45,421 nucleotides of DNA from Ruminiclostridium sp. (lineage in GTDB: Bacteria; Bacillota; Clostridia; Oscillospirales; Ruminococcaceae), in NCBI GenBank assembly GCA_017465545.1, contig JAFTVY010000073.1, positions 1 to 45,421 on the forward strand, given 5' to 3'. Numbering within the stretch: the stretch's first letter is position 1; each line of letters opens with the position of its first letter. This document shows positions 4,979 to 31,953 of this stretch, in pieces. Both the position numbers and the translations under genes were made by a program. The notes under the pieces were generated by a model. The model saw only the letters and a list, made by a program, of their open reading frames with translations. It did no database searches and was not told where the DNA came from.

Positions 4979-5659
4979 TCAGTGCTTCTGACCGCAATGA
5001 TTGCAGAAATTAGCCGCAGGAATGTTGGAGCTACCGCAGGAAGAACATACCCAGGCGGTATTCTGTGGCTGCTGTGTAGTAAAGCTGTTGACATTCTGCT
5101 GATTATAATTCTGATAGCCGGCATTCTGCTGATTATAGCCGTAATTCTGCTGATTGTAGCCGTATCCCTGCTGATTGTAGCCGTAATTCTGCTGGTTCTG
5201 CTGGTAGTTTCTCATATTCTGAGCAAACATAGCCTGTCTTCTCTGGTTTTCTTCTGCTGTGTTGGTTGTCGCCGTAGCCTCAAGATTTCTGTCAGAGAAG
5301 GTCTTTACACCGTTTATAAGTGCGATCAAGCCGAATATGAAAACGGCAACGTCCATTATAATACTTGTCCACATGGCTATCTGTATAAAATTATTGATAT
5401 TTCCTAAAATTCCCGCTATATGTATCGTATCAATGTCAGCCGCACGGAAAAACGCAAGGAACATCTCCTCAAAGGTCTCGAAAAACGAGCCTGTAGCGAG
5501 GGTTATTACAGAGCTTATAAGAGATATTGAGCTGAAGCAGAATAAAACGGTATGTACTATGGTGATGGTCTTCAGCGTGCTGAGTGTTGACTGAAGCGGA
5601 TGCTTCTTGTACTTTGAGCAATGAACGAGAATAAGTATTCCTAAAATAATGATAAGCAT
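4979..5659 (-). CDS. Membrane protein with prion-like Q/N/Y/G linker and C-terminal zinc ribbon (fifth of operon)
   Basis: This 226-residue protein of no recognised family begins with a hydrophobic segment (LIIILGILILVH) and has two or three more membrane segments up to about residue 115. A linker rich in Gln, Asn, Tyr and Gly follows (about residues 145-195), with a 7-residue period around YGYNQQN. It ends in a zinc ribbon, CSSCG then CNHCG. Layout and operon position match the 297-residue gene upstream, 26 bp away, so the two are probably paralogues. The ribbon probably faces the cytoplasm. The function is not known; the ribbon could bind protein or nucleic acid, and the linker could support self-association, both inference. 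Confidence 0.8.
   Translation of the reverse strand: MLIIILGILILVHCSKYKKHPLQSTLSTLKTITIVHTVLFCFSSISLISSVITLATGSFFETFEEMFLAFFRAADIDTIHIAGILGNINNFIQIAMWTSIIMDVAVFIFGLIALINGVKTFSDRNLEATATTNTAEENQRRQAMFAQNMRNYQQNQQNYGYNQQGYGYNQQNYGYNQQNAGYQNYNQQNVNSFTTQQPQNTAWVCSSCGSSNIPAANFCNHCGQKH
5096..5212 (-). repeat. 21-nt tandem repeats coding the YGYNQQN linker
   Basis: Imperfect 21-nt units (plus strand form around CTGCTGATTGTAGCCGTAA) encode the Gln/Asn/Tyr-rich linker. The reading frame is kept, so this is a coding repeat and not an intergenic array. Confidence 0.8.
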
Positions 5660-5685
5660 AGTTTTTTCTTCCTTTCTTTATCTTA

Positions 5686-6579: not shown

Positions 6580-6661
6580 TTTTTGTTGTTATCCTTTGTT
6601 TGTATTATTTGCTGACAGAACATTTTTTTCTGATGCTGACACGTATAAAAGTGCTACAAGC

Positions 6662-7198
6662 TCAGACGTTATCCGCTTTTATTTTACTACCGCACTGAGT
6701 ACAGAAATTTGCACCGTTTACAAGCTGTGCGCCACAATGAGGACAAAAACCACAGCTGCAGGTCGTAAACGCCACGTTTGATACGTCGGGGCGTTCTGTC
6801 GTTACATTCGGAACGTTTTCAACGGGAGCAGGCTTTATCATCCCTTGCGCAAAAAGAATGAACTTTATAGCGTAAAAATAGCATATAAGCTTTACCACCG
6901 CATCGACTACGTAGAGGACGATCTGTATTATATTTACAAAATTTGCAATGCCATAAGCAGTGCCGTAGATTAATGAACCGCTTAAAAACAGGTGAGCTAT
7001 ATTGTATACCGGAATAGACAAGGACGTCAGAATGAGGCTCATATATGCTATAAATCTGATGTTTGAAATTGTTCGTTTGTCTAAGTTTCCTGCATATCTC
7101 ACGTTTTTCCGTAAACGGATTGCCAGAAATCCCGTCAGTCCGGTTATACCTATCACAACAGGATAAATTATCAAGGAGAAAATCAGTACAATTCCCAT
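6662..7198 (-). CDS. Small membrane protein with C-terminal zinc ribbon (third of operon)
   Basis: The 178-residue product has about three or four hydrophobic spans (residues 3-27, 48-70 and 85-118) and a C-terminal ribbon, CPHCG then CTQCG, ending GSKIKADNV. Its ATG overlaps the TAA of the upstream 132-residue gene (TAATG), which points to translational coupling. Unlike the two following genes it has no long low-complexity linker. The family is not recognised. The ribbon closely resembles the broken copy at 7618-7705, sharing FCTQCG and 18 identical bases around it. Confidence 0.75.
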   Translation of the reverse strand: MGIVLIFSLIIYPVVIGITGLTGFLAIRLRKNVRYAGNLDKRTISNIRFIAYMSLILTSLSIPVYNIAHLFLSGSLIYGTAYGIANFVNIIQIVLYVVDAVVKLICYFYAIKFILFAQGMIKPAPVENVPNVTTERPDVSNVAFTTCSCGFCPHCGAQLVNGANFCTQCGSKIKADNV

Positions 7199-7596
7199 TA
7201 TACGTCGCCCTCCTTTTTTATATCCGTCGGGATGACGTTGCCGCTATCCCGGGATCGTAGCTGTTTTTTCACCTTTGCTATTATACCTGCAGATAATTTC
7301 AGAACAAGAGGGTTCAGAATACAGATAATCAGGCAGGGTATAACGTGAGGCAATGTCATAGCGCCGGCTGTCTCGACAGATTCTTTTAAAAACTGCATAC
7401 AATAAATACAAAACAGATGTATAACCACAGGTATCATAAAAAGGTTTATTGCAGATAAAACGGTTATTGCGGTAATGCAAAACCTCTTTTTTGTCCGCTT
7501 TGTAATAAAAGCGAGAATTACAGTAATTACAAGAAGCGCTATGGAGAAAATTTCGGCGGCAACAAGTATACTGTAAAATATCTGTTTTTCGTCCAT
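7198..7596 (-). CDS. Small membrane protein without zinc ribbon (second of operon)
   Basis: The 132-residue product has three hydrophobic segments (about 10-30, 40-68 and 85-110) and a basic C-terminal tail, but no Cys-x-x-Cys pair, unlike its four operon partners. An AAAGGAGAT ribosome binding site precedes the ATG. The stop codon overlaps the next start by one base. It may be a paralogue that lost its ribbon or a distinct subunit; its similarity to the others is only in size, topology and position. Function unknown. Confidence 0.7.
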   Translation of the reverse strand: MDEKQIFYSILVAAEIFSIALLVITVILAFITKRTKKRFCITAITVLSAINLFMIPVVIHLFCIYCMQFLKESVETAGAMTLPHVIPCLIICILNPLVLKLSAGIIAKVKKQLRSRDSGNVIPTDIKKEGDV

Positions 7597-7617
7597 TGTT
7601 ATCTCCTTTAGTATTGG

Positions 7618-7705
7618 TCAGTTATTATCTCTATCTGTCTTGCCACCGCACTGAGTACAGAATACCGCATTAGGTTATAAACTGCGCCTTATATGTAGTC
7701 TGCAT
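7618..7705 (-). pseudogene. Frameshifted remnant of a zinc-ribbon C-terminus
   Basis: Between the first and second genes of the operon the minus strand encodes KAQFIT and then, after a +1 shift, NAVFCTQCGGKTDRDNN and a TGA at 7618-7620. This matches the end of the intact 178-residue gene (AQLVNGANFCTQCGSK). It lacks the membrane part and the first Cys pair. It is most simply the tail of a deleted paralogue. Confidence 0.65.
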
Positions 7706-7750
7706 TTATTGGTGTGGATCGATATGGCTTTTCCGTTGTTCTTATCCCGA

Positions 7751-8440
7751 TCAATTATCAGAACCGAGTCTTTTTCCGCAATTGTGACAGAAAGCGGCGT
7801 TTTCGGGGTTTTCCGCATTGCAGGATTCACATATGTTGAGAGGCTTCGGAAGAGGCTGAGGAGCCACGTTCTGGGCCTGAGCCGAAACAAATTCCGTAGC
7901 CGCACACTTGGGGCAGGCTGTTGCAAACTGTGAGGATACCGTTCCGCATACTGCACAAGCCTTGAAGTTGGGATTCTGTGGCGCTATAACGTTATTTACC
8001 CTGAATGCTGCCTGTGTGAGAGACTTGTCTAAAAGCACACGATAACCCCAAACACACACTATGACAGATACTATGATCACAATTATGTAAAGCACGTACA
8101 TAGCTATATATGCGGTTCTTGCACCGCTGTCTGCAAGATTGAGGGCGCTGTGTACGTTGCCCGTGATGTAGTCGTAGGGGTTGAAGAGGAAGGAGAATAT
8201 ATCCAGCTTTTCTAAAAGGAACAGAGAGCCTACTATGGTAAGGGCAATGTTCAGTCCCTTTATTACGCTTCTTCTTCTTGCTGTGGGGTTTTTCTTATAA
8301 CGGGGAATAGTGAATATCAGTATCATCATAAGCACGATTACGGCTAAAAAGAATATAAATCCTTCAAAAAGCTCTGAGAAAAGTGCCTTATTGCGATAAT
8401 TTGCTGTTATATCCGCTGTTACTGCAAGTAAATTATTCAT
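7751..8440 (-). CDS. Membrane protein with two C-terminal zinc ribbons (first of operon)
   Basis: The 229-residue product has three predicted membrane segments (about 25-47, 63-82 and 110-137). A cytoplasmic tail follows with two four-Cys ribbons: CAVCG with CPKC near residues 160-180, and CESCN with CHNCG near 205-225. An AAAGGAGG ribosome binding site lies close to the ATG and a consensus promoter lies upstream at 8515-8543. It opens the operon that continues to 4979. Ribbons of this type are common in uncharacterised Firmicutes membrane proteins and give no function by themselves. Confidence 0.8.
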   Translation of the reverse strand: MNNLLAVTADITANYRNKALFSELFEGFIFFLAVIVLMMILIFTIPRYKKNPTARRRSVIKGLNIALTIVGSLFLLEKLDIFSFLFNPYDYITGNVHSALNLADSGARTAYIAMYVLYIIVIIVSVIVCVWGYRVLLDKSLTQAAFRVNNVIAPQNPNFKACAVCGTVSSQFATACPKCAATEFVSAQAQNVAPQPLPKPLNICESCNAENPENAAFCHNCGKRLGSDN

Positions 8441-18237: not shown

Positions 18238-19059
18238 ATGGAAAACAACCGACTTACAATTCTGACAACGGTGCTTGACTATATTGAAGAGCATATCGAT
18301 GATACACTTACTCAGGAGGACTGTGCAAGGGCGGCTTATTGCTCCCTTTCAAACCTTCAGAAGCTGTTCAGATACGTTTTTCATTTCAGCGTCGGCGAAT
18401 ATATCACCAAAAGGCGGATGAGCCTTGCGGCAAAGGATATACAGTCAGGTATATCCGTGCTTGATACTGCCATAAAATACGGCTATAGCTCCTCGGAGGC
18501 TTTTACAAGAGCCTTTACACGTGTCTGGGGAGAAACGCCCTCAAAATTCAAGAAGAACCGCCGTTTTACAGGTATATGCCCTAAACTGAATATGCCTGTA
18601 GCGGTACAGTACGAAGGAGGAATCGTTATGAGAAGACAGTTTGACGTTTCGGATTTATACGAATTTATAAGAAGCAGAAAGGGCACGTATATCGTTACCT
18701 TTGATTCGGCAAGGCTGATGGCAATAAATGAAAATTACGGTAGCGAGGCAGGGGACTGCTACATCCGTGAAACTGCAAGAAGGGTAGAGCAGCAGCTTAC
18801 CGATGATATGGTAATGTTCCGCATTGGCGGTGATGAGTTCGCTGTAATTACCTGCCTTTCCGATAAACAGCAGGTTATTGATTTTGCAGAGAGTGTTTTG
18901 TCCCAGAACGGCAATACCATAAATTATAAGGGTACTGAAATTCCCGTACTTGTAAGATCAGGCGCAATGCTTATCGGTGACAACTGTAAGCACTACAGTA
19001 CGCTCTTTACAGATCTTATTTCAGCGGCAAGCCTCGATCCCGACGTATTTAATATCTGA
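18238..19059 (+). CDS. AraC-type HTH fused to a GGDEF domain
   Basis: The 273-residue protein joins an N-terminal AraC/XylS DNA-binding domain (about 8-108; two HTH motifs, ending in the family-like VWGETPSKFKK) to a C-terminal GGDEF domain (about 150-270). The diguanylate cyclase residues appear kept: metal Asp156 (VTFD), Asn164 (INENYG), Asp173 (EAGD) and RIGGDEF at 195-201. The second Asp of the usual DxD is Ala. No RxxD inhibitory site precedes GGDEF, and the C-terminal part is short and divergent. It could couple c-di-GMP or GTP to transcription, or be a c-di-GMP-making regulator; activity is inferred only. Confidence 0.8.
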   Translation: MENNRLTILTTVLDYIEEHIDDTLTQEDCARAAYCSLSNLQKLFRYVFHFSVGEYITKRRMSLAAKDIQSGISVLDTAIKYGYSSSEAFTRAFTRVWGETPSKFKKNRRFTGICPKLNMPVAVQYEGGIVMRRQFDVSDLYEFIRSRKGTYIVTFDSARLMAINENYGSEAGDCYIRETARRVEQQLTDDMVMFRIGGDEFAVITCLSDKQQVIDFAESVLSQNGNTINYKGTEIPVLVRSGAMLIGDNCKHYSTLFTDLISAASLDPDVFNI

Positions 19060-19337: not shown

Positions 19338-20174
19338 ATGGAAAACAGAATATTAAAGCCGTACAGCGTCCTTATGTCTGTTTATAAGGGCGAGAATACG
19401 GACTATTTCAGGGCAAGTATGGACAGCCTGTGCGCACAGACCTATCCCGCAGATCAGATAGTGCTGGTATGTGACGGACCTTTGAGCAATGAGCTTGACA
19501 GCGTTATAGACAGCTACCGTGATAAGCTTTCAGGCGTTCTGGATGTGATAAAGCTCCCCGAAAACAAGGGTACTGCCTACTGTGCCAACGAAGGACTTAA
19601 GGCCTGCAGAAACGAATATATCATGAAGATGGATTCTGACGACGTCTGCAACGAAAAAAGAGCAGAAAAGCAGATGAGCTATCTTACCGAAAAGCCTTAT
19701 ATAGATATACTTGGTAGCTACATTGAGGAATTCAAATCCGCTGATAACACAGCTATCGGCGTAAGACAGACACCAACCACCCACGAAGAGATAATGAAGT
19801 TCGCTAAAAGAAGAGCGCCCTTCAACAATCAGACTCTCGTTTATAAAAAGGAATATGCTGAGAAGATCGGTGGCTATTCCTCTGACCTGATTCGTTGCGA
19901 AGACTATGACTTTATGGTACGTATGCTGATGGCAGGAGCAAAATCCGCCAATATCCCCGAGGTCTTAGTCCGCTACAGAGTAGATAAGAATAACCTTAAG
20001 CGCCGCCGCAACTGGAAGAATACAAAGAGCTTCTTTGCAGTAAGAAAAAAGATATACAAGATGGGCTTCTCAGGCTTCTGGGATTACGTTCTGCCCTGTG
20101 CAGGACAGCTTATGCTGTTTATAACCCCAAGCTGTATTACGGGACTTATCTATAAAATAATGCTGAGAAAATAA
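19338..20174 (+). CDS. Family 2 glycosyltransferase
   Basis: The 278-residue protein has a GT-A fold start (YSVLMSVYKGE), the nucleotide-binding strand VLVCDGP and the metal-binding DxD in MKMDSDD (about residue 97). The ED motif in RCEDYDFMVRML (about 183) is typical of GT2 enzymes resembling AmsE-type exopolysaccharide transferases. A C-terminal hydrophobic stretch (about 250-270) may touch the membrane. It should add a sugar to a surface glycan; donor and acceptor are unknown. It is monocistronic between its own promoter and a terminator. Confidence 0.85.
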   Translation: MENRILKPYSVLMSVYKGENTDYFRASMDSLCAQTYPADQIVLVCDGPLSNELDSVIDSYRDKLSGVLDVIKLPENKGTAYCANEGLKACRNEYIMKMDSDDVCNEKRAEKQMSYLTEKPYIDILGSYIEEFKSADNTAIGVRQTPTTHEEIMKFAKRRAPFNNQTLVYKKEYAEKIGGYSSDLIRCEDYDFMVRMLMAGAKSANIPEVLVRYRVDKNNLKRRRNWKNTKSFFAVRKKIYKMGFSGFWDYVLPCAGQLMLFITPSCITGLIYKIMLRK

Positions 20175-20206
20175 TCTCCTTTACTTTTTTATCGGTAAAG
20201 GAGATT
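20173..20206. terminator. Bidirectional terminator between convergent genes
   Basis: A 12-bp perfect stem (AATCTCCTTTAC with GTAAAGGAGATT) overlaps the glycosyltransferase stop. It is followed by TCTTTTATT on the plus strand, and by ATTTTC on the minus strand for the GH5 operon. Confidence 0.85.
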
Positions 20207-20218: not shown

Positions 20219-22240
20219 TTATTTCGTTGTTCCGCTTATTTCCGTAAATGCGCTGTAGGAGGGAGTTGCACCTACAAAGTTGAAGGTCTGTACCCTGAAT
20301 TTGTAGGTTGTGCCGCTTTCAAGTCCGTCAATACGGTAGTTGAGCGTTTCGTTACCTGAGATTCTTGCAATTCTTGTCCATGCGCCATCCTTGTACTGTT
20401 CAATGATGTAGCCTGCGGCAGAATCGTTCTGATTCCAGCCAAGACGAAGAGCTGTAGTTGCTCTGCCGACAAATTTAAGTCCGGATACCGCCGTCGGATT
20501 TGTTCTCCAGGCACCGGAGGTGTAAGCTGAATAAAGAGCTGTACCGCCGCTTATACTGTACGCACGCATTCTGAATTTGTATGCTGTAAAGCCCTGAAGA
20601 CCTGATACTCTGTAGGAGGTGGTTTCGTTGCCCGTTATTCTTGCTATTCTTGTCCACTTGCCGTCTTTAAGCTGTTCAATGATATATCCGTCTGCGGAGG
20701 TGTTCTTGTCCCAGGCAAGACGGAGCGCAGTACCTGATTTGCCTGCAAGTCTGAAGCCGGTCATAGCAGAGGGATTAGTACCTGCGGAAAGCTGTGTGTA
20801 TCCGCTGTATAATGCGTTGGAGCCGTCAATCTTGTATGCCTTGATTCGGAATTTGTGGGTTTCTCCTGCGGCAAGTCCCGATACTCTTAAAGTATTGGTG
20901 GCGTTGCCCGCAATTCTTGCGATTCTTGTCCACTTCCCACTCTTGTACTGCTCAACGATATAACCGTCAGCGGTAGAGTTTACATCCCAGTTCAGTCTTA
21001 TAGCGGCGGCAGTTCTGCCACCTACTTCAAAGCCTGTAACGTCCTTTAGCTTGAAGAAGGGTTCTACAAGCGCGTCTACAAATTCCTGATCGTTCCAGGT
21101 GAGTGTGAGACGGTTGAGGTGTCCGTGGTTTTCACCGAGATTCGACGTGCTGTACTTTACGTTGTTATCCCATATCATACAAGGGATACCGAGTTCAGCG
21201 GATTTACCCATATAATATTCTGCCCACTTTACTCTTTCGGCGGTGTTGTTCTTGTTGGATGCGCTTGTTTCACCGATTACTACGGGAATGCTCTTGCTTA
21301 TGAATTTTGATTTGAGCGTATCGAAAAGATAATCTACTTCATTTTTACCGCTGGCGTTGAAAACAGTAGTTCCGCTGGCGTTGAGTGCAAAGTTATAGGG
21401 TGTGTATGCATGAACGGAAACGATAAGCTTGTTGCTTGCCGTATCTGCAGGAAGCTTGTAGCCTGCTGTCGTACAGCCGTCTATTGATGCGCCGTAGCCG
21501 GGTATCATAATGCATCTTTCGGCATTGTTGCCGCCGGATGCTCTTATAACGTTAACAGCCTGCTGATTCATCTCGTTGATGACGTTTATAGCGTCTGTTA
21601 CGTTAGCGTTGGGACTGTTTACGGGGAACCACCATTCGTCGCCTGTTCCAACGAGTCTGGGTTCGTTGAGAGTCTCGAATATAAGATGCTGGTCATAGCT
21701 TTTAAAGGTTTCTGAAACCTGCGTCCAGATTGCCTTTACAAAGGCTATCGACTGATCCTTATAAGTAGAGTTGGGGTAGAAGAAGCGGTCATCACCACCG
21801 TATTTCTTATCGTTATCGTGGTGGATATTGAGAATAACGTACATATTGTTGTCAATAGCATAATCAACAACTTCCTTCACTCTTGCCATCCAGGCAGAAT
21901 CGATAACGTAGCCCTCGGCTCTTTTTGTCATATGACTGCCCCAGGACACGGGGATTCTTACCGTGTTGAAGCCTTGCGCCTTTACGGCGTCAATCATTGC
22001 CTTTGTAGTCTTGGGGTTGCCCCAGGAGGTCTCGGAATTAAGAGTACCGCCACCGCCCGTAGCGTCAAGGGTGTTGCCCAGGTTCCAGCCGATACCAAGA
22101 TCGGCTACTACCTGATTTGCTGTTTTGCCCGTGAGGGACGCCGCAGAAACGGGGGTATGCATACCGCATAAAAGAGTAAATGCGAAAAGCACCACCATAA
22201 GAGCGGATATAAGTGAGATTCTTTTTCTTGTTATTGTCAT
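20219..22240 (-). CDS. Secreted GH5 endoglucanase with three FN3 modules
   Basis: The 673-residue protein has a signal peptide (basic start, hydrophobic core, VSA cleavage near 33), a GH5 catalytic domain (about 36-395) and three fibronectin type III modules (about 400-487, 490-580, 582-673). The acid/base Glu193 lies in LIFETLNEP, the nucleophile Glu324 in VVIGE, and NIHHDND carries the conserved His pair. Motifs such as GWNLGNTLDA and ETSWGNP suggest subfamily GH5_4 (from memory), which cleaves cellulose, mixed-linkage glucan or xyloglucan. No dockerin, SLH or LPXTG is present, so it should act as a free enzyme. It lies 17 bp after its larger paralogue. Confidence 0.9.
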   Translation of the reverse strand: MTITRKRISLISALMVVLFAFTLLCGMHTPVSAASLTGKTANQVVADLGIGWNLGNTLDATGGGGTLNSETSWGNPKTTKAMIDAVKAQGFNTVRIPVSWGSHMTKRAEGYVIDSAWMARVKEVVDYAIDNNMYVILNIHHDNDKKYGGDDRFFYPNSTYKDQSIAFVKAIWTQVSETFKSYDQHLIFETLNEPRLVGTGDEWWFPVNSPNANVTDAINVINEMNQQAVNVIRASGGNNAERCIMIPGYGASIDGCTTAGYKLPADTASNKLIVSVHAYTPYNFALNASGTTVFNASGKNEVDYLFDTLKSKFISKSIPVVIGETSASNKNNTAERVKWAEYYMGKSAELGIPCMIWDNNVKYSTSNLGENHGHLNRLTLTWNDQEFVDALVEPFFKLKDVTGFEVGGRTAAAIRLNWDVNSTADGYIVEQYKSGKWTRIARIAGNATNTLRVSGLAAGETHKFRIKAYKIDGSNALYSGYTQLSAGTNPSAMTGFRLAGKSGTALRLAWDKNTSADGYIIEQLKDGKWTRIARITGNETTSYRVSGLQGFTAYKFRMRAYSISGGTALYSAYTSGAWRTNPTAVSGLKFVGRATTALRLGWNQNDSAAGYIIEQYKDGAWTRIARISGNETLNYRIDGLESGTTYKFRVQTFNFVGATPSYSAFTEISGTTK

Positions 22241-22257
22241 AAATTATTCCTTTTTCG

Positions 22258-25008
22258 TTAGCTTAACGTTGTACCTGTTACAGTCTTGTATTCGCTGTAA
22301 AGTGCAGTTTCTCCGACCATATTGTAGGTTCTTGCCCTGAACTGGTATTCAGTAGCCGCCGAAAGTCCCGTCACCTTGTATTCGGTGGTAGCCTTGTCAA
22401 CGTCGGCAATCTGTACCCACTTACCATCAATATACTGTTCGATGAGATAGCCGTCTGCAGAGGTGTTTTCTGTCCAGGCAAGTCTTATCGCCTTATCGGA
22501 TCTGCTCTTTACTCTAAGACCTGATATAGCTGAGGGGTTTGTAGTCTTTGAAAGTGTTCCTGTGTATGCGCTGTAGGTCTTTTCGCCATACTTTGTAACA
22601 GCATATGCCTTCATTCTGAAGCTGTACTTTGTGGAAGCACTAAGTCCTGTTACCTTGTATTCGGTAGTCTTATAATCGTCAATATCGGCAATCTGTACCC
22701 ATTCATCGTCAATCATCTGTTCGATGATATAACCGTCAACCGCTGTGTTCTTTGTCCACTTGAGACGAAGTGCCGTTGACGATCTGCTCTTTAAAGCAAG
22801 ACCTGTCACAGAAGCCGCCTTGGTGTTTGCTGTAAGTGTGCTTGTTCTGGGACCGTAAACGGTTTCGCCACCGTCATTTACGGAATAAGCCTTGATTTTG
22901 AATTTATAGGCTGTACCCGATTTCAATCCCGTCACCTTGTAGGTGGTTGTTGCCTTATCGGTAATATCAGCAAGCTGTACCCATGCAGAGCCGCTGTACT
23001 GCTCGATTATATAGCCGTCGGCATAAGCGTTTTCCGCCCAGCTGAGACGGATAGCAGAGGTGGACTGGCTGGGTGAATTAAAGTTCCTTACCTCTGTCAT
23101 TCTTGTGCTTTCGGTAAGTACGTCGGTGTATTCGCTGATGCCGTCGTCGTTGTATGCCGCCATTCTGAATTTGTAAACAGTACCGGGGATAAGTCCCGTT
23201 ACCTTATAGGTAGCTGTTGCACCGTCTGTAACGTCAGCGATCTGTACCCAGTTTCCGTTAATGTACTGTTCAATGATATAACCGTTAGCTGTGGCGTCAG
23301 CAGTCCAGTTAAGACGGATAGCGGTGATTGCCTTGCTGGGTGAAGTAAAGCCTGATACAGCCACAGGAGGTGTAGCTGGTTCTTCTGCGGAGGGTGTTTC
23401 GTAGGATAAGGAGTAAACCGTTATAGAGCCGTCTCTTGCACCTACGTATACACAGTCAAGATAGGAGGCAAGATCATTGCCGAAGGCTGATACGCAGTTA
23501 GCATAGGAGAACTTGGCGTAGTACTTGTTACCTGCCGTACCCGACTCGGAGAAGGCAATCTGCGCCCATTCCGTGCCACCTGACCAGCTCTGCATAATAA
23601 GCTCGATTTTTCCTACGTCACCTGTATATTCTACGTAGAAATATCCGTTTTCCTTGATTATAGCGGGATTTAACGTGCCACCATCGTTCTTTATCGTCAT
23701 TACAGACGTAGCCTGCGCCCAGGCATCTGCAGAAGCGGTACCTGTAAATAATACTTCGCTGTCGGTAGGCGTATCGTTATTATTGCCACCGTTATTATCG
23801 TCACCGCCTGAAGAAGGTGTGTTACCGTAGCAGGATACCATAGCGTCTACTACGTCCTTATCATTCCAGGTGAGTGTGAGACGGTTGAGATAACCGTGCT
23901 GTTCGCCAAGGTTACCTGAGCCTGTATATACGTTGTTGTCCCAGAGCATAACGGGAATACCAAGAGAAGCGGATTTACCCATATAGTAGTTTGCCCACTT
24001 CAGACGCTCAGAGGCGTTACCTTTGTTGGATGCGCTTGCTTCACCGATAACAACGGGGATATTCTTATCAAGGAATTTTGATTTCAGAGTGCTGAAGAGG
24101 TAGTCAACCTCAGGCTTCAGATCGTCTGAAAATACAGACGTACCGTTTGCATTGAGTGCGAAGTTATAAGGTGTGTAAGCGTGTACGGAAACTATAAGTC
24201 TGTCATTTGCAGTATCTGCAGGAAGACTGTAGCCTGACGTTGTGCAACCGTCTATAGAAGCACCGTAGCCGGGGATCATAATGCATCTTTCTGCATTGTT
24301 GCCACCGGATGCTCTTATAACGTTTACCGCCTGCTGGTTCAGTTCGTTTATAACGTCTATCGCCTGAGAAACGTTTGTGCCGGGGTTATCTACCGGGAAC
24401 CACCATTCGTCGCCTGTTCCGACAAGTCTCGGTTCGTTGAGAGTCTCGAATATGAGATGCTGATCGTAATCCTTGAAGGTTTCGGAAATCTGTGTCCATA
24501 CCGCCTTTACGAATTTGATTGACTGATCCTTGTAGGTTTCGCTCGGATAGAAGAAGCAGTCGTCGGAGTTTCTTATATCGTTATCGTGATGTATGTTCAG
24601 TATAACGTACATATCATTATCGATAGCGTAATCAACGATCTCCTTTACTCTTGCCATCCATTGTGAATCGATGACGTAGCCTGCAGAGCTGTTTGTCATA
24701 TGACTGCCCCAGGATACGGGGAGTCTCATTGTGTTGAAGCCCTGCGCCTTTACAGCGTCAATCATTGCTTTTGTGGTTTTGGGGTTGCCCCAGGAGGTTT
24801 CTGCATCAAGTGTGCCGTTGCCACCTGTGGCGTCAAGGGTATTGCCGAGGTTCCAGCCGAGATCAAGCTCAGCCATAAGTTCGTTTGCGGTCTTTCCCGT
24901 AAGCTTTTCTGCTGATGCAGGAAGCGGTATACTGCATACTATAAGTAATGCGAACAATATCGCCGTAACAGCAGAAATTACAGAGACCGTCTTTCTTGCC
25001 TTTGACAT
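22258..25008 (-). CDS. Secreted GH5 endoglucanase with unassigned beta-module and four FN3 modules
   Basis: The 916-residue protein has a signal peptide (ASA near 33) and a GH5 domain (about 36-395) closely similar to the paralogue downstream; acid/base Glu192 is in ETLNEP and nucleophile Glu323 in VVIGE. An Asn/Gly/Asp linker (398-415) follows, then a module at about 415-540 rich in Trp and Tyr (SWSGGTEWAQ) that looks like a carbohydrate-binding beta-sandwich of unassigned family, then four FN3 modules (about 548-916). It starts 17 bp after cheB, so it is almost certainly on the chemotaxis transcript. The two enzymes form a tandem duplication with different accessory modules. Confidence 0.9.
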   Translation of the reverse strand: MSKARKTVSVISAVTAILFALLIVCSIPLPASAEKLTGKTANELMAELDLGWNLGNTLDATGGNGTLDAETSWGNPKTTKAMIDAVKAQGFNTMRLPVSWGSHMTNSSAGYVIDSQWMARVKEIVDYAIDNDMYVILNIHHDNDIRNSDDCFFYPSETYKDQSIKFVKAVWTQISETFKDYDQHLIFETLNEPRLVGTGDEWWFPVDNPGTNVSQAIDVINELNQQAVNVIRASGGNNAERCIMIPGYGASIDGCTTSGYSLPADTANDRLIVSVHAYTPYNFALNANGTSVFSDDLKPEVDYLFSTLKSKFLDKNIPVVIGEASASNKGNASERLKWANYYMGKSASLGIPVMLWDNNVYTGSGNLGEQHGYLNRLTLTWNDKDVVDAMVSCYGNTPSSGGDDNNGGNNNDTPTDSEVLFTGTASADAWAQATSVMTIKNDGGTLNPAIIKENGYFYVEYTGDVGKIELIMQSWSGGTEWAQIAFSESGTAGNKYYAKFSYANCVSAFGNDLASYLDCVYVGARDGSITVYSLSYETPSAEEPATPPVAVSGFTSPSKAITAIRLNWTADATANGYIIEQYINGNWVQIADVTDGATATYKVTGLIPGTVYKFRMAAYNDDGISEYTDVLTESTRMTEVRNFNSPSQSTSAIRLSWAENAYADGYIIEQYSGSAWVQLADITDKATTTYKVTGLKSGTAYKFKIKAYSVNDGGETVYGPRTSTLTANTKAASVTGLALKSRSSTALRLKWTKNTAVDGYIIEQMIDDEWVQIADIDDYKTTEYKVTGLSASTKYSFRMKAYAVTKYGEKTYSAYTGTLSKTTNPSAISGLRVKSRSDKAIRLAWTENTSADGYLIEQYIDGKWVQIADVDKATTEYKVTGLSAATEYQFRARTYNMVGETALYSEYKTVTGTTLS

Positions 25009-25025
25009 AAAATTTTTCCTTTCTG

Positions 25026-26111
25026 TTAATTTGTTATCTGAATTATAATATCGCCGATTTCATTAAGCGGTGCCTGAACCGCTACTCCGCCTATCTCATA
25101 AGCGACGGCAGGCATACCGTAAACAACGCAGGAATCCTTATCCTGACCTATCGTAAAGGATCCGGCATCCCGCATCTGCTTCAGTCCATTTGCACCGTCT
25201 CTGCCCATACCCGTAAGTATAACGCCAAGAGCTTCTTCACCTGCAATTTTTGATACCGAATCAAAAAGCACGTCAACGGAAGGGCAGTGACCTGATACCT
25301 TTTCTCCGTGCTGACTCTTGATATAGTAGCCGAGAGCGTCCTTATATACTCTCATCTGCTTTGCTCCGTGAGCTAAGATTATCAGCCCTTCACGGAGTCT
25401 GTCTCCGTCCTCTGCTTCCTTGGCATCCATTATGCAGATGCGGTTCAGCCTTTCGGCATACATCTGCGTAAAGCCTTCGGGCATATGCTGTACTATTACT
25501 ACGGGCGGAGTGTTGTAGGGGAGCTTCTGTACTACCTCGATTATAGCGTCAGTACCGCCAGTGCTGGCTCCGATTGCTATAAGCTTTATATCTCTCTGCT
25601 TTATTTCAGCAGGTATATTTACGCTGATTTTACCCGTAAAGGACTTTGCCGTCTGGCTAACAGTCTCCTTTACAACGGGCTTTGCAGATGTTTCTTTCTT
25701 CGGTTGTGGCGTCTGCACGGGATTTATTGTATTTGCCTTTGTAATGCCCTCCCGCATTCCGTCAAGGGCTTTCAGCAGAACCTTTTTAAAGCGTTCAAGA
25801 CCTTCAACACCGCTTTCAGCATTTCTGATAGCAGTGTGTACACCATATGCAGAGGGGTTGTCAATAGCGCCTTTATGCCCCGTGACAAGTATTACAGGCT
25901 TTCCGTCGGCAGAGGGAGGCGAAAAATCCTTGCCGACTATAAATTCGCTCAGTACAATACAGTTGCACCTTGTCGGATCCACGTCCTCCTTTTTGCATAT
26001 AACGGCTACCATATCCATATCGCTGCGGTTTATAATATCTGCAATTATATGATTTATGGCGGGACTTGAGCCTGTTACTATGACTTTAAGCGTGCCGTTC
26101 TTATTACTCAT
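25026..26111 (-). CDS. cheB: Chemotaxis methylesterase CheB with degenerate receiver domain
   Basis: The 361-residue protein has a receiver-like N-terminus (about 7-118), a Pro/Lys linker (130-160) and an intact methylesterase domain (about 172-360) with the catalytic triad Ser183 (GASTGG), His209 (QHMPEGF) and Asp305 (GMGRDGA). In the receiver part the acidic pair after strand 1 is replaced (VIVTGSS instead of the usual VVDDS), the strand-3 phospho-Asp is missing (CIVLSEF) and the switch Lys is not found. It should remove methyl groups from, or deamidate, chemoreceptors without the usual phosphorylation switch; that last point is inference. A strong hairpin lies upstream, after cheR. Confidence 0.9.
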   Translation of the reverse strand: MSNKNGTLKVIVTGSSPAINHIIADIINRSDMDMVAVICKKEDVDPTRCNCIVLSEFIVGKDFSPPSADGKPVILVTGHKGAIDNPSAYGVHTAIRNAESGVEGLERFKKVLLKALDGMREGITKANTINPVQTPQPKKETSAKPVVKETVSQTAKSFTGKISVNIPAEIKQRDIKLIAIGASTGGTDAIIEVVQKLPYNTPPVVIVQHMPEGFTQMYAERLNRICIMDAKEAEDGDRLREGLIILAHGAKQMRVYKDALGYYIKSQHGEKVSGHCPSVDVLFDSVSKIAGEEALGVILTGMGRDGANGLKQMRDAGSFTIGQDKDSCVVYGMPAVAYEIGGVAVQAPLNEIGDIIIQITN

Positions 26112-26131
26112 GTTAATTCCTTTTTATACAC

Positions 26132-26161
26132 ATATTTCCGCTACGTAGGTAGCGGAAATAT
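26132..26161 (-). other. 13-bp perfect hairpin between cheR and cheB
   Basis: ATATTTCCGCTAC pairs fully with GTAGCGGAAATAT around the loop GTAG. On the minus strand it is followed by GTGTATAAAAAGG, not a T run, so it is unlikely to be an intrinsic terminator. It may stabilise or cleave the mRNA between the upstream che genes and the cheB-cellulase part, or be a protein site. Confidence 0.7.
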
Positions 26162-26173
26162 TATAGCTTCAGA

Positions 26174-26989
26174 TTATAGCGGTTTTCTGTATATCGCAGG
26201 CTTTACGTATTCGTAGTCTGTTGTGTCTCTCGGAATACTCTCTGCGTGACCTATGAAGAGATATCCGCCGGGGCGGAGTACCTTGTAGAAGCGTTTTACA
26301 AGCTCTATCTTGGTTTCCATCTCGAAATAGATCATAACGTTGCGGCAGAAGATAAGATCAAAGGGAGCCTTCGTAAAAGGTATATCCTCCATAAGGTTGA
26401 AGGTACGGAAGATAACCTCGTCACGAAGGGCCTTCTTCACCTTGTACTTATCATCCTCGCATTTGTCGAAGTATTTTGTTTTCCAGGCGTCGGGAAGATC
26501 CTGCATACCTGATGCGGCATAGATTCCCTCCTGAGCGCTGGAAAGAATTTTAAGGGAAATGTCGGTAGCAAGGATTCTCGTATCCCAGCTCTGCTTTTCC
26601 GCTCCTAAAAATTCGTTTATGTGCATAGCGGTCGTATAGGCTTCTTCGCCGCTGGAACAACCCGCACTCCATATTCTCATGGATTTCGTCTTGTTTACTT
26701 CCTTGATAAAGGGGAGTACCGTCGACGTAAGGAAGCTGTAATGCTCAGGCTCTCTCATAAAATAAGTATGATTGGTAGTGAGCTTGATTATCAGCTTGTC
26801 GATTTCCTTTCCCGTTTTATCGGCAAAGCACATATCCATATAGTCGTTGTAATTCTTAAAGCCCATCTCAACCAGAGAATTGCTGAGTCTGCCTTCGACG
26901 AGCGCTCTCTTGTGTGTGAGATTTATGCCGTAATTATCACGCATATAGCTTACAAGACGTTCAAATTCCTTGTCGTTTATCTTTAACAA
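26174..26989 (-). CDS. cheR: Chemotaxis protein methyltransferase CheR
   Basis: The 271-residue protein matches CheR in length. It has the N-terminal helical domain (about 1-75), then the SAM-binding domain with IWSAGCSSGEEAYTTAM (about 106-122), ILATDIS (about 138) and the FDLIFCRNVMIYF motif (about 215). It methylates glutamates of chemoreceptors. It lies 23 bp after cheW and is separated from cheB by 62 bp containing a stable hairpin. No receptor gene is present in the window. Confidence 0.95.
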   Translation of the reverse strand: MLKINDKEFERLVSYMRDNYGINLTHKRALVEGRLSNSLVEMGFKNYNDYMDMCFADKTGKEIDKLIIKLTTNHTYFMREPEHYSFLTSTVLPFIKEVNKTKSMRIWSAGCSSGEEAYTTAMHINEFLGAEKQSWDTRILATDISLKILSSAQEGIYAASGMQDLPDAWKTKYFDKCEDDKYKVKKALRDEVIFRTFNLMEDIPFTKAPFDLIFCRNVMIYFEMETKIELVKRFYKVLRPGGYLFIGHAESIPRDTTDYEYVKPAIYRKPL

Positions 26990-27012
26990 GTTTCCACCCG
27001 CTTTCCTGATTT

Positions 27013-27540
27013 TCAGATGTCTTCACGGATCTGATCGTCAATAATTTTGTCAACGTCAAGCACCAGCTTGATTCCGTCATCCATTTCAAGAATGAACTTG
27101 ATGAACTTGCTCTGGTTGATATTGTTCAGCTCAGGTGTCTTTGAAATGTGCTTTTCAGTTATTGAAGTAACGTCAGCCACGCTGTCAACGATAAGACCAA
27201 CGGAGGTGTCACCGGTTGATACGTGAATTACGCAGGTTCTGTCTGTGAAGGGGATTTCGGGCTTTCCGAATCTGCTTCTGATATTTACTACAGGTACTAT
27301 CTTGCTTCGTACGTTGATAATACCCTTGATATAGTCAGGAACTCCGGGTACCGCTGTGATGGGGGAGACCTCTATGATTTCAACTACGTAGGGAATCTCA
27401 ATGCCATACACCTGCTCGCCTATATTGAAGGTGAGTACCTTGGTTATCTCCTGATTGGAGGCGTCCTTCTTTGCAGCTTCAATCTGGGACTGACTGCTTA
27501 AAAGTGCCTGAAGTTTTTCGTTATAGTTTACTGTTGCCAC
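27013..27540 (-). CDS. cheW: Chemotaxis coupling protein CheW
   Basis: The 175-residue protein consists of a short N-terminal helix (residues 1-28) and one CheW-like SH3-type domain (about 30-170). Visible motifs are VLTFNIGEQVYGIEI, VPGVPDYIKGIINVR (the conserved VPxxPxxxxGxxNxRG region), VPVVNIRSRFG and the aspartate-rich C-terminal segment. It links chemoreceptors to CheA at the membrane array. It is the second gene of the operon, 42 bp after cheA. Confidence 0.95.
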   Translation of the reverse strand: MATVNYNEKLQALLSSQSQIEAAKKDASNQEITKVLTFNIGEQVYGIEIPYVVEIIEVSPITAVPGVPDYIKGIINVRSKIVPVVNIRSRFGKPEIPFTDRTCVIHVSTGDTSVGLIVDSVADVTSITEKHISKTPELNNINQSKFIKFILEMDDGIKLVLDVDKIIDDQIREDI

Positions 27541-27582
27541 AGTATTATCCTCCCGATTTTAGATTTTGTAAAAAGCCGTTTA

Positions 27583-29652
27583 TCAGCCGTTAATAAGTGT
27601 GTTTACGTCTATAATAAGTGAAATAGTACCATCACCCATTACAGTACATCCCGACAGACCCTCTGCCTTGATATTGTACTGGCTTAAATACTTGGGGAAG
27701 GGCTTTACTACTACAGGCTGTTCACCGATAAGTCTGTCTGCAAATATGCATACCGACTTGTCGTCAACCTCTACAAGAAGGAGAATACCTTCGTTAAGGT
27801 CTGTGACTTCTGTAGGCATCTTGAATTTCTCGTGGAGTCTTAAAATAGGATAGCAGATGCCTCTTATCATTATCATTTCGCCCTGCTGAGTATCGTTAAT
27901 CAGCTTGTTGTTGCCGACCATAAGGCTTTCCTTGATGGAGGAGATCGGAACTGTAAAGATCGTAGAGCCAACCTTCAGCTTCATACCTTCAACAATTGCA
28001 AGCGTCAGCGGAATCTTGATAATGAAGCTTGTACCCTTGCCTTCTTCACTGTCAACGGCAAGCGTACCGCCGATCTGCTCGATGTTGGACTTAACAACGT
28101 CCATACCAACACCACGGCCACTATACTCTGTAACCTGTTCATTGGTGGAGAAGCCGGGCAGGAGAATCATATTCTGGATTTCCTTGTTTGTATATTCGCT
28201 TTCAGGTTTTGTGAGCATACCGTTCTTTACAGCCTTTGCGAGTACCTTCTGGCAGTTGATACCCTTACCGTCGTCGCTTACCGTAATGATAACCTCGTTG
28301 GAGGAGTGCTTTGCGGCAAGCTTTACGGTAGCCTTTGCGGGCTTACCTAAAGCAAGTCTTTCGTTTACGTCGGTTTCAATACCGTGGTCCATACAGTTTC
28401 TTACAAGGTGCATAAGAGGATCGTTTAAGCTGTCAACGATGCTCTTGTCAACTTCTGTTGTTTCACCCTCAAGAATAAGCTCTGCGTCCTTGTTCAGCTT
28501 CATCTTCATATCACGGACGATTCTGCCCATCTTCTGGAATACGCCTGCAAGAGGCACCATTCTGATTGACATTACAACGTCCTGAAGCTCGTCTGTGAGC
28601 TTTCTGAGCTGTCTTGCCGCCTTTGAGAAGCTTTCAAGTCTCAGTCCCTCAAGGTCGGGGTTAGCTATAACCATTGATTCTGTAGTGATGATTTCACCAA
28701 CGATATCGTGAAGCTGGTCGAGCTTTGCAAGGTTTACACTGATAAGGCTCTGCTTCTGTCCGCCACCGCTTGACTTCTTCGCTTCGTCCTGTGACTTTGC
28801 GGCAGTCTTCTGTGCAGGTGCGCCTGCTTCAGCCGCCTTTTTCTGTTCTTCCTTCTTCGCTTCTTCCTCGGTTACAGTTTCAACTATTTCATAAGAAGCT
28901 ACGTTGAGTGCTGTCTCGATAGCCTTTACTACTGCGTCGTTGTTGCCGTCAAAACCTCTGAAGGTGATGATAAAGCCGTTTTCAACGATACCCTTTGCCG
29001 CCTCGGCATTGGTCTCTACGTCGGCAGGAATGTGGGAGATTATCTCGCCCTCTTCCTTTATCTTTGTGAGTAAGAGGAAGGCACGGAGGTTTTCCATTCC
29101 ACAGCCTTCTTCAAAGAATACTCGTACTGTCATAGTACCCTCGCCACCGCCTACGATGGGAGCCGCCTTTGCAGGAGCCGCATCCTTTGTTGCGGGAGCC
29201 GTATCCTCAGGAACCGCTTCGCCTGCCGCCATAGCCTTGAGCTTTGTTGTGGCATCCATAAGCTTTGAATAGTTTTCTGAGAAATCTGTGGGTGTGAAAT
29301 CGTCATCGTCACTTGTCTGGATATATTCGATCTCAGCCTTGTATAAGTCTGAAACCTCGAATATCAGCTCGTAAACGAAGGGAGCGCTCTTTGCTATTTC
29401 GGGTTTTTCTCTGATAACGAAGAACATGTCCTCGCCCTTGTGAGCGAGCTTCTGGAGATTTTCAAATCCCATCATCGCAGAAGAGCCCTTGATAGTATGC
29501 ATTATACGGAAAATTTCGTTAATGTCATCCTCTGCAAAGACGCCTGCTTCCTCCGTTCTCAGTAAGATTTCATCCAGCTGCTCAAGCAGCGTGTTGGTTT
29601 CGAATATGTACACCTCGAGCATGGATTCCATGCCTGCTTCAACCTTTGCCAT
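27583..29652 (-). CDS. cheA: Chemotaxis histidine kinase CheA
   Basis: ATG at 29652 is preferred, with AAAGGCGG 8 bases upstream; an in-frame TTG at 29694 would add 14 residues that do not resemble a CheA start. The 689-residue protein has P1 with phospho-His52 (MHTIKGSS), a CheY-binding P2-like domain (about 172-260) followed by an Ala/Lys/Gln linker, P3 dimerisation (about 302-365), P4 kinase with H415 in the N-box (HLVRNCMDHGIE), DDGKGI at 460-465 and GRGVGMD at 512-518, and P5 (about 555-689). All domains look intact. It is the first gene of the unit that continues through cheW, cheR, cheB and two cellulases. Confidence 0.95.
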   Translation of the reverse strand: MAKVEAGMESMLEVYIFETNTLLEQLDEILLRTEEAGVFAEDDINEIFRIMHTIKGSSAMMGFENLQKLAHKGEDMFFVIREKPEIAKSAPFVYELIFEVSDLYKAEIEYIQTSDDDDFTPTDFSENYSKLMDATTKLKAMAAGEAVPEDTAPATKDAAPAKAAPIVGGGEGTMTVRVFFEEGCGMENLRAFLLLTKIKEEGEIISHIPADVETNAEAAKGIVENGFIITFRGFDGNNDAVVKAIETALNVASYEIVETVTEEEAKKEEQKKAAEAGAPAQKTAAKSQDEAKKSSGGGQKQSLISVNLAKLDQLHDIVGEIITTESMVIANPDLEGLRLESFSKAARQLRKLTDELQDVVMSIRMVPLAGVFQKMGRIVRDMKMKLNKDAELILEGETTEVDKSIVDSLNDPLMHLVRNCMDHGIETDVNERLALGKPAKATVKLAAKHSSNEVIITVSDDGKGINCQKVLAKAVKNGMLTKPESEYTNKEIQNMILLPGFSTNEQVTEYSGRGVGMDVVKSNIEQIGGTLAVDSEEGKGTSFIIKIPLTLAIVEGMKLKVGSTIFTVPISSIKESLMVGNNKLINDTQQGEMIMIRGICYPILRLHEKFKMPTEVTDLNEGILLLVEVDDKSVCIFADRLIGEQPVVVKPFPKYLSQYNIKAEGLSGCTVMGDGTISLIIDVNTLING

Positions 29653-29711
29653 ATAGAAAACCGCCTTTCTGAAAAATTCTTGTTTTTTGTACAATCTATT
29701 GAAGATTGATA

Positions 29712-29740
29712 TTGATAAATTTTAAAAAGTGTGCTAAACT
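29712..29740 (+). promoter_or_regulatory. Likely promoter of the fliK-like/flhX genes
   Basis: TTGATA (29712-29717), 17 bp and TAAACT (29735-29740) with an extended TG at 29732-29733. Its -10 box overlaps that of the divergent cheA promoter. Confidence 0.5.
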
Positions 29741-29767
29741 ATATGTATAGCCACCTTTTGTGGTCAA
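29738..29767 (-). promoter_or_regulatory. Likely promoter of the cheA-cellulase operon
   Basis: The minus strand has TTGACC (29762-29767), 18 bp and TATAGT (29738-29743), about 85 bp before the cheA ATG. It looks like a sigma-A site; no convincing flagellar sigma-D motif was seen. Confidence 0.55.
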
Positions 29768-29801: not shown

Positions 29802-31673
29802 ATGCCTAATATCCCACAGCTGACGTCTCCCGTATCGAATAACAAAAGCTATTCTTTTACGAATCGTCAGTACGATGGTAATATAGAACCCTTTGATATG
29901 GTGGAGCTTGCTCAGCCGCTCAAGGCTGCCGGCGCATCTCAGGAAGAGAGTGGCTCTGCCGCCGCTATGATGATGGGAAGAAAGAATCTTGCACCGCTTA
30001 CGGTACAGATAAAGGATCCCACAATGGCGGTAGAAACGCTTAAAAACCTTTTAAGCTCCGATATTTTAGAGCAGACTATGATAAGCGGCTACACCGAGCT
30101 TTACGGTGATATGGAGGAGCTTATCAAGAGCTTTTACTTAAGTCCCGAAAAGCTTGTAGAGGAAATCAGAAATCAGGAAAAGCAGAACACGATGTTCAGC
30201 GGCGATGAGTTCTATAAGCTGCTTCACGGAATCTTAAAGACGACCACAAGCCCTGAAATAAGGGACAATATCGGAAATCTTTTAAAGGCTCTTAACTTTG
30301 CGGGCAATAAGGAGGAGATCCTTAACGCCCTCAGCGCAAATCTCAAATTCCTGTCTGAATATTTCTCTCCCAACGCTTCACTTTCTGCAAAGCTTACAAA
30401 GCTGTCAGATCAGTGGGGAGCAGAGGATGCAGAGTTTATGTTTGAACCTCTCAAGGGCGAGACGCTTGCTCTGTTAAAGGACGTATCCGCAAGTCTTCTC
30501 AACGACGAGCGTACCCAGACCTTTATTCCTCTTATAATACATAACCTCTCCCGCTATAATACAAATAAGTATATGCTGAAGGAGAGCTTCGCAAATCTGT
30601 TGACTTACATACCGTCAAACGAAATGCGAAGGGAATTATCCACCGCTTTCAATAATCTGCTTCAGAAAATGTTCAGTCCGAAACAGCTCAGCGAAATGGA
30701 AGATAATTCTGATACTTATAATAATACACTAATTCAAAAAGAAAATCAAGAGTTTTTTAGCATTTTTGACAATAAAGACGAAAATTCTTCTCTTTCTTTG
30801 TTCATAAAGACACATATGAGCAGTGAAGAATACCTTGAAGGAATAGATTTATCCGCTGAAAAACTGGAATTTCTGACAAATCCTTTCTTTGATGGTGAGC
30901 AGTCGGGACTTCAGACTATAAAAAATATCCTGATGTCAATGCTTGGCGGCACCGAGTCCCGTCAGATGATTCCCGTTATACATAAGGAAATTCAGGGTAT
31001 CGCAGACCTTACGACGCTTGTTGAATATCTCAACAACATTCTGAAGGAAATGCCCGATATAGACCAGCGTGAGGATGTTTTCAGATTCTTTACCGAAATT
31101 GTCAATAAAATGGCTGAACGTAAGGAGCTTCCTGCAGACAGCAATATTCCGTCTTCACCCTCTACTCTTGATAAGCTGACAGAATTTATAGCAAAGAATA
31201 TAAATCACGAGGCTATCCAGTCGCTGGATAACTTCAACGCCTCAAACCTTCTGCAGAGCCTTCTCAATGCTCCCGGTGTATTCACACCTCTTGCGCATTA
31301 CGTTCTGCCGCTCCAGTTTGAGGATACCAAGGCTTTCGGTGAATTATGGGTAGATAACGACGAAAACAACCCCAATAACACCCCCATAGGTCAGAAGAAC
31401 TATCACCTCTTCTTAACCTTCGATATAGAATCCGTCGGCAGATTTGAAGTGGATATGTACGCTTTAGGCGAAAATATCAGTCTTTCCTTCCTTTATCCCG
31501 AAGGCTTTGACTACAGAGTAAAAAGACTTACCGACAAGATAGATTTAGTTATAAGAAATATAGGCTATAAGCCTGTAAAAATGGAAACGGCAGTTTTAAG
31601 AAAGCCTCATAATCTTACAGAGGTATTCCCGAAAATAGTTGACAGGAGGAAGGGTTTAAATGTCCAGGCGTAG
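29802..31673 (+). CDS. FliK/YlqG-like protein with flagellar hook-length-control C-terminal domain
   Basis: The 623-residue protein is mostly helical and has no signal peptide. Its C-terminal part (about 500-595) resembles the Flg_hook domain of FliK: YHLFLTFDIESVGRFEVDMY, with the L-x-F-x-x-x-x-x-G pattern, then two strands and a final helix (RVKRLTDKIDLVIRNIGY). The next gene is a stand-alone FlhB C-terminal domain, as in the Bacillus ylqG-ylqH pair. The N-terminal 500 residues are not recognised. It probably interacts with the flagellar export gate, though a role at the membrane outside flagella cannot be excluded. The stop overlaps the next gene by 14 bases. Confidence 0.65.
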   Translation: MPNIPQLTSPVSNNKSYSFTNRQYDGNIEPFDMVELAQPLKAAGASQEESGSAAAMMMGRKNLAPLTVQIKDPTMAVETLKNLLSSDILEQTMISGYTELYGDMEELIKSFYLSPEKLVEEIRNQEKQNTMFSGDEFYKLLHGILKTTTSPEIRDNIGNLLKALNFAGNKEEILNALSANLKFLSEYFSPNASLSAKLTKLSDQWGAEDAEFMFEPLKGETLALLKDVSASLLNDERTQTFIPLIIHNLSRYNTNKYMLKESFANLLTYIPSNEMRRELSTAFNNLLQKMFSPKQLSEMEDNSDTYNNTLIQKENQEFFSIFDNKDENSSLSLFIKTHMSSEEYLEGIDLSAEKLEFLTNPFFDGEQSGLQTIKNILMSMLGGTESRQMIPVIHKEIQGIADLTTLVEYLNNILKEMPDIDQREDVFRFFTEIVNKMAERKELPADSNIPSSPSTLDKLTEFIAKNINHEAIQSLDNFNASNLLQSLLNAPGVFTPLAHYVLPLQFEDTKAFGELWVDNDENNPNNTPIGQKNYHLFLTFDIESVGRFEVDMYALGENISLSFLYPEGFDYRVKRLTDKIDLVIRNIGYKPVKMETAVLRKPHNLTEVFPKIVDRRKGLNVQA

Positions 31674-31953
31674 TAGAAATTTCGGCCAGCAGGCGGCGGC
31701 AGCCTTAAAGTATAATCCTGATATGAGCTATGCTCCCGTAGTAGTAGCCTCAGGTCTTGGCGAGCTTGCAAAAAAGATTATAAATATTGCGGATGAAAAC
31801 GGCGTTCCCGTTTACCGTGACGACAGTACAGCCGCCCTTCTCGTTATGCTCAACAGCGGCGAGTGTATACCAGTTGAGCTTTACAAGGTCATTGCGGCTA
31901 TCTATGCCGAAGTGGTGTATTCCGCAAACGATATGAAGAAAGGAAAGGTATAA
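31660..31953 (+). CDS. Stand-alone FlhB C-terminal domain (FlhX/YlqH type)
   Basis: The 97-residue protein matches the part of FlhB that follows the NPTH autocleavage site: AAAALKYNPDMSYAPVVVAS, then a strand-helix-strand pattern (PVYRDDSTAALL) and the ending IPVELYKVIAAIYAEVVY. The NPTH site and membrane domain of full FlhB are absent, as in FlhX/YlqH proteins. FlhX can act as part of the export gate in some Firmicutes; here it may partner the FliK-like protein. The start is preceded by GGAGGAAGGG inside the upstream gene. Confidence 0.85.
   Translation: MSRRSRNFGQQAAAALKYNPDMSYAPVVVASGLGELAKKIINIADENGVPVYRDDSTAALLVMLNSGECIPVELYKVIAAIYAEVVYSANDMKKGKV

Follow-up and report, generated by a model that had tools for sequence, protein, structure and literature searches.

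We posit, with a probability of roughly 0.7, that one transcription unit in a Ruminiclostridium genome would encode the core of a chemosensory array together with two secreted β-glucanases, and that it would be expressed from a promoter embedded antisense in a neighboring FliK-like gene. Genes for chemotaxis commonly cluster with those for motility, and genes for polysaccharide-active enzymes with those for transporters and regulators. As compared here from sequence, the arrangement recurs in a set of related genomes, including members that have no detectable flagella.

Organization of the che–GH5 locus and its host genome

The window, by which we mean the whole stretch of 45,421 nucleotides that was analyzed, is contig 80 of a 2.6-Mb draft genome (97.7% complete). 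On its minus strand lie cheA, encoding a histidine kinase (27583..29652), cheW (27013..27540), cheR (26174..26989), cheB, encoding a methylesterase (25026..26111), and two GH5 genes, GH5a (22258..25008) and GH5b (20219..22240), with successive gaps of 42, 23, 62, 17, and 17 nt. Open reading frames and Pfam matches thereby agree with the co-directional order and spacing described in an earlier sequence-only reading. The cheA frame was first called from a TTG codon (27583-29694), and an alignment of 11 CheA proteins places the likely start at ATG 29652 (MAKVEAGMESML) rather than at TTG 29694. The 17-nt gap between cheB and GH5a (25009..25025, minus strand; 15–17 nt in the three closest relatives) had been said to leave no room for a promoter. 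It contains a Shine–Dalgarno-like AGAAAGGA, and in a consensus scan the minus strand has no promoter-like site of at least 9/12 between 25377 and 25009, the last 370 nt before GH5a. The claim that a terminator follows only the last gene goes too far. A hairpin at 20173..20206, where the convergent GH5b and GT2 genes meet, is a possible shared terminator, listed as a plus-strand terminator with a weaker minus-strand tail (ATTTTC), but weak minus-strand terminator-like sites also occur inside several genes, as well as in the predicted leader (30007-29990). The scan returned 18 terminator-like sites in a 12-kb region versus 10.4 in shuffles. A gene at 18238-19059, two genes past the operon, has a product that fuses an AraC-type DNA-binding domain to a GGDEF domain.

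As in the cheA-W-R-B operons of Firmicutes in general, CheA with all its usual domain families (Pfam: Hpt, P2, H-kinase_dim, HATPase_c, and CheW), CheW, CheR, and CheB are encoded co-directionally. Unlike those operons, the unit in the window adds genes for GH5 enzymes with predicted export, and Pfam detects the methylesterase domain alone in CheB, with no receiver domain even at E up to 0.5. CheB is about 190 aa in three relatives that lack flagella and was not found in two others. A further difference is that CheC, CheD, and a single-domain CheY-like receiver are encoded in a distant flagellar cluster on contig 17. The host genome contains one CheA match, six MCP matches (one of which contains an internal stop), flagellin-type genes, FlhA, and a FliA-type sigma factor; no chemoreceptor gene was seen adjoining the che–GH5 genes. 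One of its flagellins, of 1209 aa (G000:C40:7816-11445; L189:7816-11445), has normal Flagellin_N and Flagellin_C ends and a large insert of β-helix repeats with an HExxH-like stretch and a weak SprT-like match (E 0.09); it is possibly a flagellin that bears a peptidase. G024, G033, and G026 likewise have open frames of about 1200 aa with Flagellin_N matches. Elsewhere in the window, the minus strand of 4979-8440 carries five small membrane-protein-like open reading frames, four of which have, as judged by eye, terminal zinc-ribbon-like CxxC motifs.

Both GH5 proteins begin with a signal-peptide-like N-terminus (by eye) followed by a GH5 domain (Pfam), to which GH5a adds CBM65_1 and four FN3 stretches and GH5b adds three FN3 stretches. 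The GH5 motifs NEP and GE, with their glutamates, are present in 15 of 15 orthologs, and signal-peptide-like N-termini, again by eye, in the ortholog group. Among solved chains, GH5a is nearest to Cel5C (4nf7) and to a broad-specificity endoglucanase of GH5-4 (6xsu), and its catalytic module may belong to GH5 subfamily 4. The pairing of GH5 with CBM65 is known from Eubacterium cellulosolvens and from Ruminococcus albus 8 (Ra2535). In the account of the R. albus CBM65 considered here (PMC4954948), the module bound xyloglucan and lichenin, and the control was also somewhat retarded. Ra2535 has a dockerin-like sequence, whereas GH5a and GH5b have no dockerin match, carry FN3 repeats, and are encoded in a chemotaxis operon. 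We predict from these features that the two enzymes are exported and act on β-glucans. The window's genome has 11 GH5 matches in total. In the GH5 tree GH5b, a paralog of GH5a, groups with the ortholog of G021, and GH5a with those of G024 and G033, which indicates that the two copies in the window arose by a duplication inside their own subclade; the tree does not fix the position of the G050 ortholog.

Conservation across the genus and relation to known systems

The sequence-only reading had staked its proposal on the adjacency being kept in sister species, and it is kept. In a set of 71 genomes of the genus, with the window's own as G000, CheB is found in 59. The ortholog group defined by the catalytic region of GH5a comprises 15 genes in 14 genomes; the 14 orthologs besides GH5a are 61–86% identical to it and are sharply separated from the next match at 49%. 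In 13 of the 14 genomes the ortholog lies within the che cluster, the exception being G050, and an adjacency of this regularity is more than chance. In 10 genomes, among them that of the window, cheB and GH5 are immediate neighbors in this order on one strand, with gaps of -1 to 62 nt. No cheB was found in G063 and G064, where GH5 begins 42 and 48 nt past cheR, and in G065 a 576-aa open reading frame sits between cheB and GH5. Other genus members have che genes with no GH5 gene behind them and GH5 genes elsewhere.

A CheA tree of 51 loci, out of 55 in which CheA was matched (only pieces longer than 450 aa were used), places the 13 linked genomes and G069 in one clade with support of 100/100. 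No GH5 ortholog was detected in G069 (96% complete), whose contig ends 308 nt past cheB. The 13 linked cases appear from this comparison to descend from one event and hence to be non-independent. A scan of named GTDB genomes covered 43 loci, 41 of them with a cheB frame (3 of which had less than 1.5 kb downstream), and GH5-like open reading frames (E up to 1e-6) occurred only in L096–L098, which apparently overlap G024, G033, and G021. Among named genomes, those closest to the window's are Ruminiclostridium sp. MAGs recovered from the colon of goat and water deer and one Oscillospiraceae MAG. The gene that follows the che-linked GH5 encodes a BspA-type leucine-rich repeat protein in G049 (L042:4725-7142) and G035 (L087:5010-7688) and a second, divergent GH5 with FN3 in G053 (L046:4833-6713).

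The design had been put forward as undescribed. In agreement with this, open-access titles and abstracts, a body of text that leaves subscription papers mostly outside and is weak evidence, contain no description of a che–cellulase operon that we could find. One transcriptome of Clostridium thermocellum reports chemotaxis genes that go up and cellulosomal genes that vary (PMC7471329), and the parts of that report concerned with these genes describe no che–cellulase operon shared by the two. Beside the known che operons, we provisionally regard a chemotaxis operon extended by secreted β-glucanases as new.

A promoter-like element antisense to a FliK-like gene

The predicted promoter of the che–GH5 unit, TTGATT-N17-TATTAT, lies at 30749-30721 on the minus strand, 1097 nt before the cheA ATG and outside the coordinates first given for the operon. 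It is antisense to a plus-strand gene (29802..31673) that has no Pfam match and that we take to be FliK-like from its position beside a gene resembling the C-terminal part of FlhB (31660..31953, plus strand; Pfam: Bac_export_2). The consensus scan gives the site no more than 9/12 and lists 21 promoter-like sites, little more than the 18.6 expected by chance. What distinguishes this site is its history in the genus. Genomes without flagella share an element, CTTGATTTT-N8-TTTRGTGTATTAT, shortly before cheA; a remnant of it lies 68–126 nt before cheA in four such relatives and 137 nt before GH5 in G050. With a weight matrix built from the four sites we scored both strands of genus loci, some of which overlap, at 2.86 million positions. 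Once the training sites, a duplicate locus, and an identical site in G069 are set aside, the best match is the G050 site (30.9 bits). The sites of nine flagellated members come next (21.6–27.3 bits), and a single unrelated site (L183, 22.9) scores within their range. In the nine members the element lies 1.07–1.10 kb before cheA, antisense to the FliK-like codons NNTLxxxENQ. The remnants, read backwards, give NTLN..ENQ or close variants (NTPKRKENQ in G064, NTLNLHKNQ in G050) with stop codons around them, a reading that supports their descent from a deleted FliK-like gene.

Constraint on the element is visible within the intact gene. Synonymous codon identity among the nine genomes is 0.94–0.99 over the element versus 0.56 over the FliK-like gene as a whole, and of 607 overlapping windows the 12 with the highest values all fall at codons 304-328. 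Sixty loci were tried for the wider pattern TTGATT-N17-TATWAT, of which 18 had no recognized cheA start and 3 lay too near a contig end. Among the 39 testable loci, 29 have the pattern directed toward cheA within 1.8 kb upstream and 10 do not, with one occurrence on the opposite strand; five more loci whose cheA start was unrecognized have similar sites. Besides G050, unrelated pattern matches number 10 in 1.83 million strand-bases. As judged by sequence comparison, the promoter-like element predates the GH5 gene. In G050 a natural deletion has brought GH5 directly behind the che promoter-like element, which argues for one che–GH5 transcription unit. As a separate observation, the antisense element of the FliK-like gene is widespread in the genus, also in members with no GH5 gene behind cheB.

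Several other candidate starts were considered. Higher-scoring minus-strand sites occur at 29528-29501 within cheA (11/12), 27572-27544 before cheW (10/12), and 29767-29738 before cheA (10/12). The three closest relatives have the first almost unchanged and five others have it in poorer form, and the other two are partly kept in the three relatives and not in the five; all three could be additional starts. A main cheA promoter in the short gap between the FliK-like gene and cheA (29767-29738) was set aside in favor of the embedded site, given that it is partial in three relatives and gone in five; the conserved stretch of this gap fits the divergent FliK-like gene better. As for σ28, a site of the flagellin gene, TAAAGTTT-N11-GCCGATAA, is a textbook match to the σ28 consensus, and a loose form of this pattern has 12 plus-strand and 11 minus-strand hits scattered over the 45 kb of the window (the scan of loci covered one strand only). 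The minus-strand hits near the che genes, at 29859 in the FliK-like gene and at 27605 in the 3' end of cheA, are both poor matches and were rejected, and it is unlikely that the che–GH5 unit belongs to a σ28 regulon.

The cheR–cheB gap contains a 13-bp RNA hairpin (26132..26161, minus strand; folding z -3.9). G000, G024, G033, G021, and G053 share it, and among them two pairs have changes in both partners; G049, G031, G052, G001, and the three flagella-less genomes that were folded lack it or have a different structure. Covariation in the five sequences is modest: the covariation score is reached by 10 of 500 shuffles, the both-side pair changes by 84 of 500, and the number of pair types by all 500. 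The hairpin has no T-run and was rejected as a terminator; its sequence occurs once in the genome, and it was likewise rejected as a repeat. Our guess is that it is an element of processing or mRNA stability. Rfam returned nothing in the window.

Relatives without flagella and the role of the pairing

Five genomes (G035, G063, G064, G065, and G069; 96–99% complete) have no Flagellin_N match and no FlhA, and each keeps CheA and three MCP matches over the cut-off and encodes PilT-family ATPases. Four of them retain cheA-W-R(-B) with GH5. The nine other linked genomes all have FlhA, on the strength of which we call them flagellated; in G021, G052, and G053 the Flagellin_N matches are only weak, in frames of about 330 aa. 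All CheA domains are intact in G063 and G064, the two genomes scanned. CheA dN/dS is 0.03–0.11 overall, flagella-less pairs included: 0.05 for G065/G069, about 0.10 for G035 against G064 and against G065 (at dS about 1, near saturation), and 0.03–0.07 in four flagellated pairs. Such low values in genomes that lack flagella support a chemosensory system under selection without flagella. G050 has no match to CheA, CheB, MCP, flagellin, or FlhA, and its retention of GH5 after the loss of che suggests that the enzyme is useful without chemotaxis. In a tree of PilB-like proteins the other four flagella-less members with GH5 form a clade (100/100), whereas G050 falls outside it and by identity is nearest to the flagellated G053; flagella were therefore probably lost at least twice. 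The sequence-only reading saw in the operon a coupling of sensing and approaching soluble sugars to the enzymes that release them. Approach by swimming cannot be the whole reason, given that four genomes keep the cluster without flagella; the pairing is not for swimming alone.

The adjacency could have been retained passively, if GH5 landed once behind a che operon, was transcribed by read-through, and was kept by descent with no advantage of joint expression. A single CheA clade, GH5 kept in G050 without che, and genus members in which che genes and GH5 genes lie apart all fit such a history, and we consider it possible. It accounts less well for the turnover around the pair: cheB is unmatched in G063 and G064 and flagellin and FlhA in six genomes including G050, yet che and GH5 stay together wherever both are seen, with short gaps in all but G065. 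Alternatively, the GH5 genes might be driven mainly by a promoter of their own in the 3' end of cheB, where the sequence 33 nt before GH5a is a perfect TATAAT and close relatives have similar A/T-rich codons. However, this hexamer has no fitting -35, and Ile codons account for it; no site of at least 9/12 was listed there by the consensus scan, and in G050 GH5 is preceded by the che promoter element and not by a cheB-end site, so that we judge a dedicated promoter to be quite improbable.

Two further alternatives concern function. The array may control type IV pili, or gene expression on fibers, instead of or in addition to flagella, with GH5 in the same program. The five genomes without flagellin and FlhA point in this direction with their retained receptors and constrained CheA, as do PilT-family ATPases in 19 of the 19 genomes examined. 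We nevertheless hold this to be unlikely, because the window's genome has flagellar genes and one CheA, with CheY, CheC, and CheD within the flagellar cluster. In addition, 15 pilus and MCP stretches from four flagella-less genomes contain no single-domain CheY-like receiver (three long proteins matched receiver seeds), and PilT-family genes are also present where che was not found (G050 and G066–G068). The GT2 and AraC-GGDEF genes just past the operon bring to mind enzymes that attack exopolysaccharide made by the cell itself and so release it from biofilm once motility is on. This seems very improbable, since plant β-glucans and xyloglucan are the substrates suggested by CBM65 and by the nearest GH5 enzymes of solved structure, and the stretches around the cluster in G049 and G053 have no GT2 match.

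We thus return to a single transcription unit led by the embedded element. RNA polymerase would start at a σA-type promoter at 30749-30721, antisense within the FliK-like gene, read a leader of about 1 kb and then cheA, cheW, cheR, the structured cheR–cheB spacer, cheB, GH5a, and GH5b, and stop at about 20.2 kb, in the convergent gap. The flagellar cluster elsewhere in the genome would supply CheY, CheC, and CheD, and the exported GH5 proteins would cut cell-wall β-glucans. Cells building an array would also release enzyme, so that search and digestion would be on one switch. The co-expression proposed in the sequence-only reading gains from the conserved adjacency, the ancient promoter-like element, and the G050 deletion, with the transcript itself a prediction. 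An advantage of joint expression, rather than accident, is plausible on these comparisons, given that che and GH5 remained joined beyond the loss of flagella and, in two genomes, of cheB. Such an advantage is unproved, as the cases stem from one event.

The predicted leader resembles the Listeria excludon, in which, according to the part of the report dealing with it, mogR has a long 5' UTR over flagellar export genes from a promoter 1,697 nt upstream (PMC7154746). A distant promoter (predicted at 1,097 nt here) and a leader antisense to a divergent flagellar gene would be alike in the two systems. In contrast, the Listeria excludon encodes a motility repressor, whereas the transcript considered here, known from sequence alone, would encode chemotaxis proteins and cellulases. 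It is tempting to speculate that a che–cellulase transcript acts as a foraging switch. Its antisense leader might damp flagellar hook assembly while array proteins and β-glucanases are made, moving the cell away from flagellar construction and toward sensing and digesting fiber, and the switch might live on in flagella-less relatives for a fiber-bound life, perhaps with type IV pili; we think this scenario doubtful.

The pairing suggests that gut bacteria that digest plant fiber turn on the search for food jointly with its breakdown, and it makes the coordination of foraging with enzyme release a testable question. The flagella-less members are natural material for the role of a flagellar-type CheA without a flagellum, and the embedded promoter-like element indicates that a regulatory site can outlive its host gene. 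If the proposal is true, a che–GH5 join that was stable across two apparent losses of flagella would point to selection on search and digestion as one trait.
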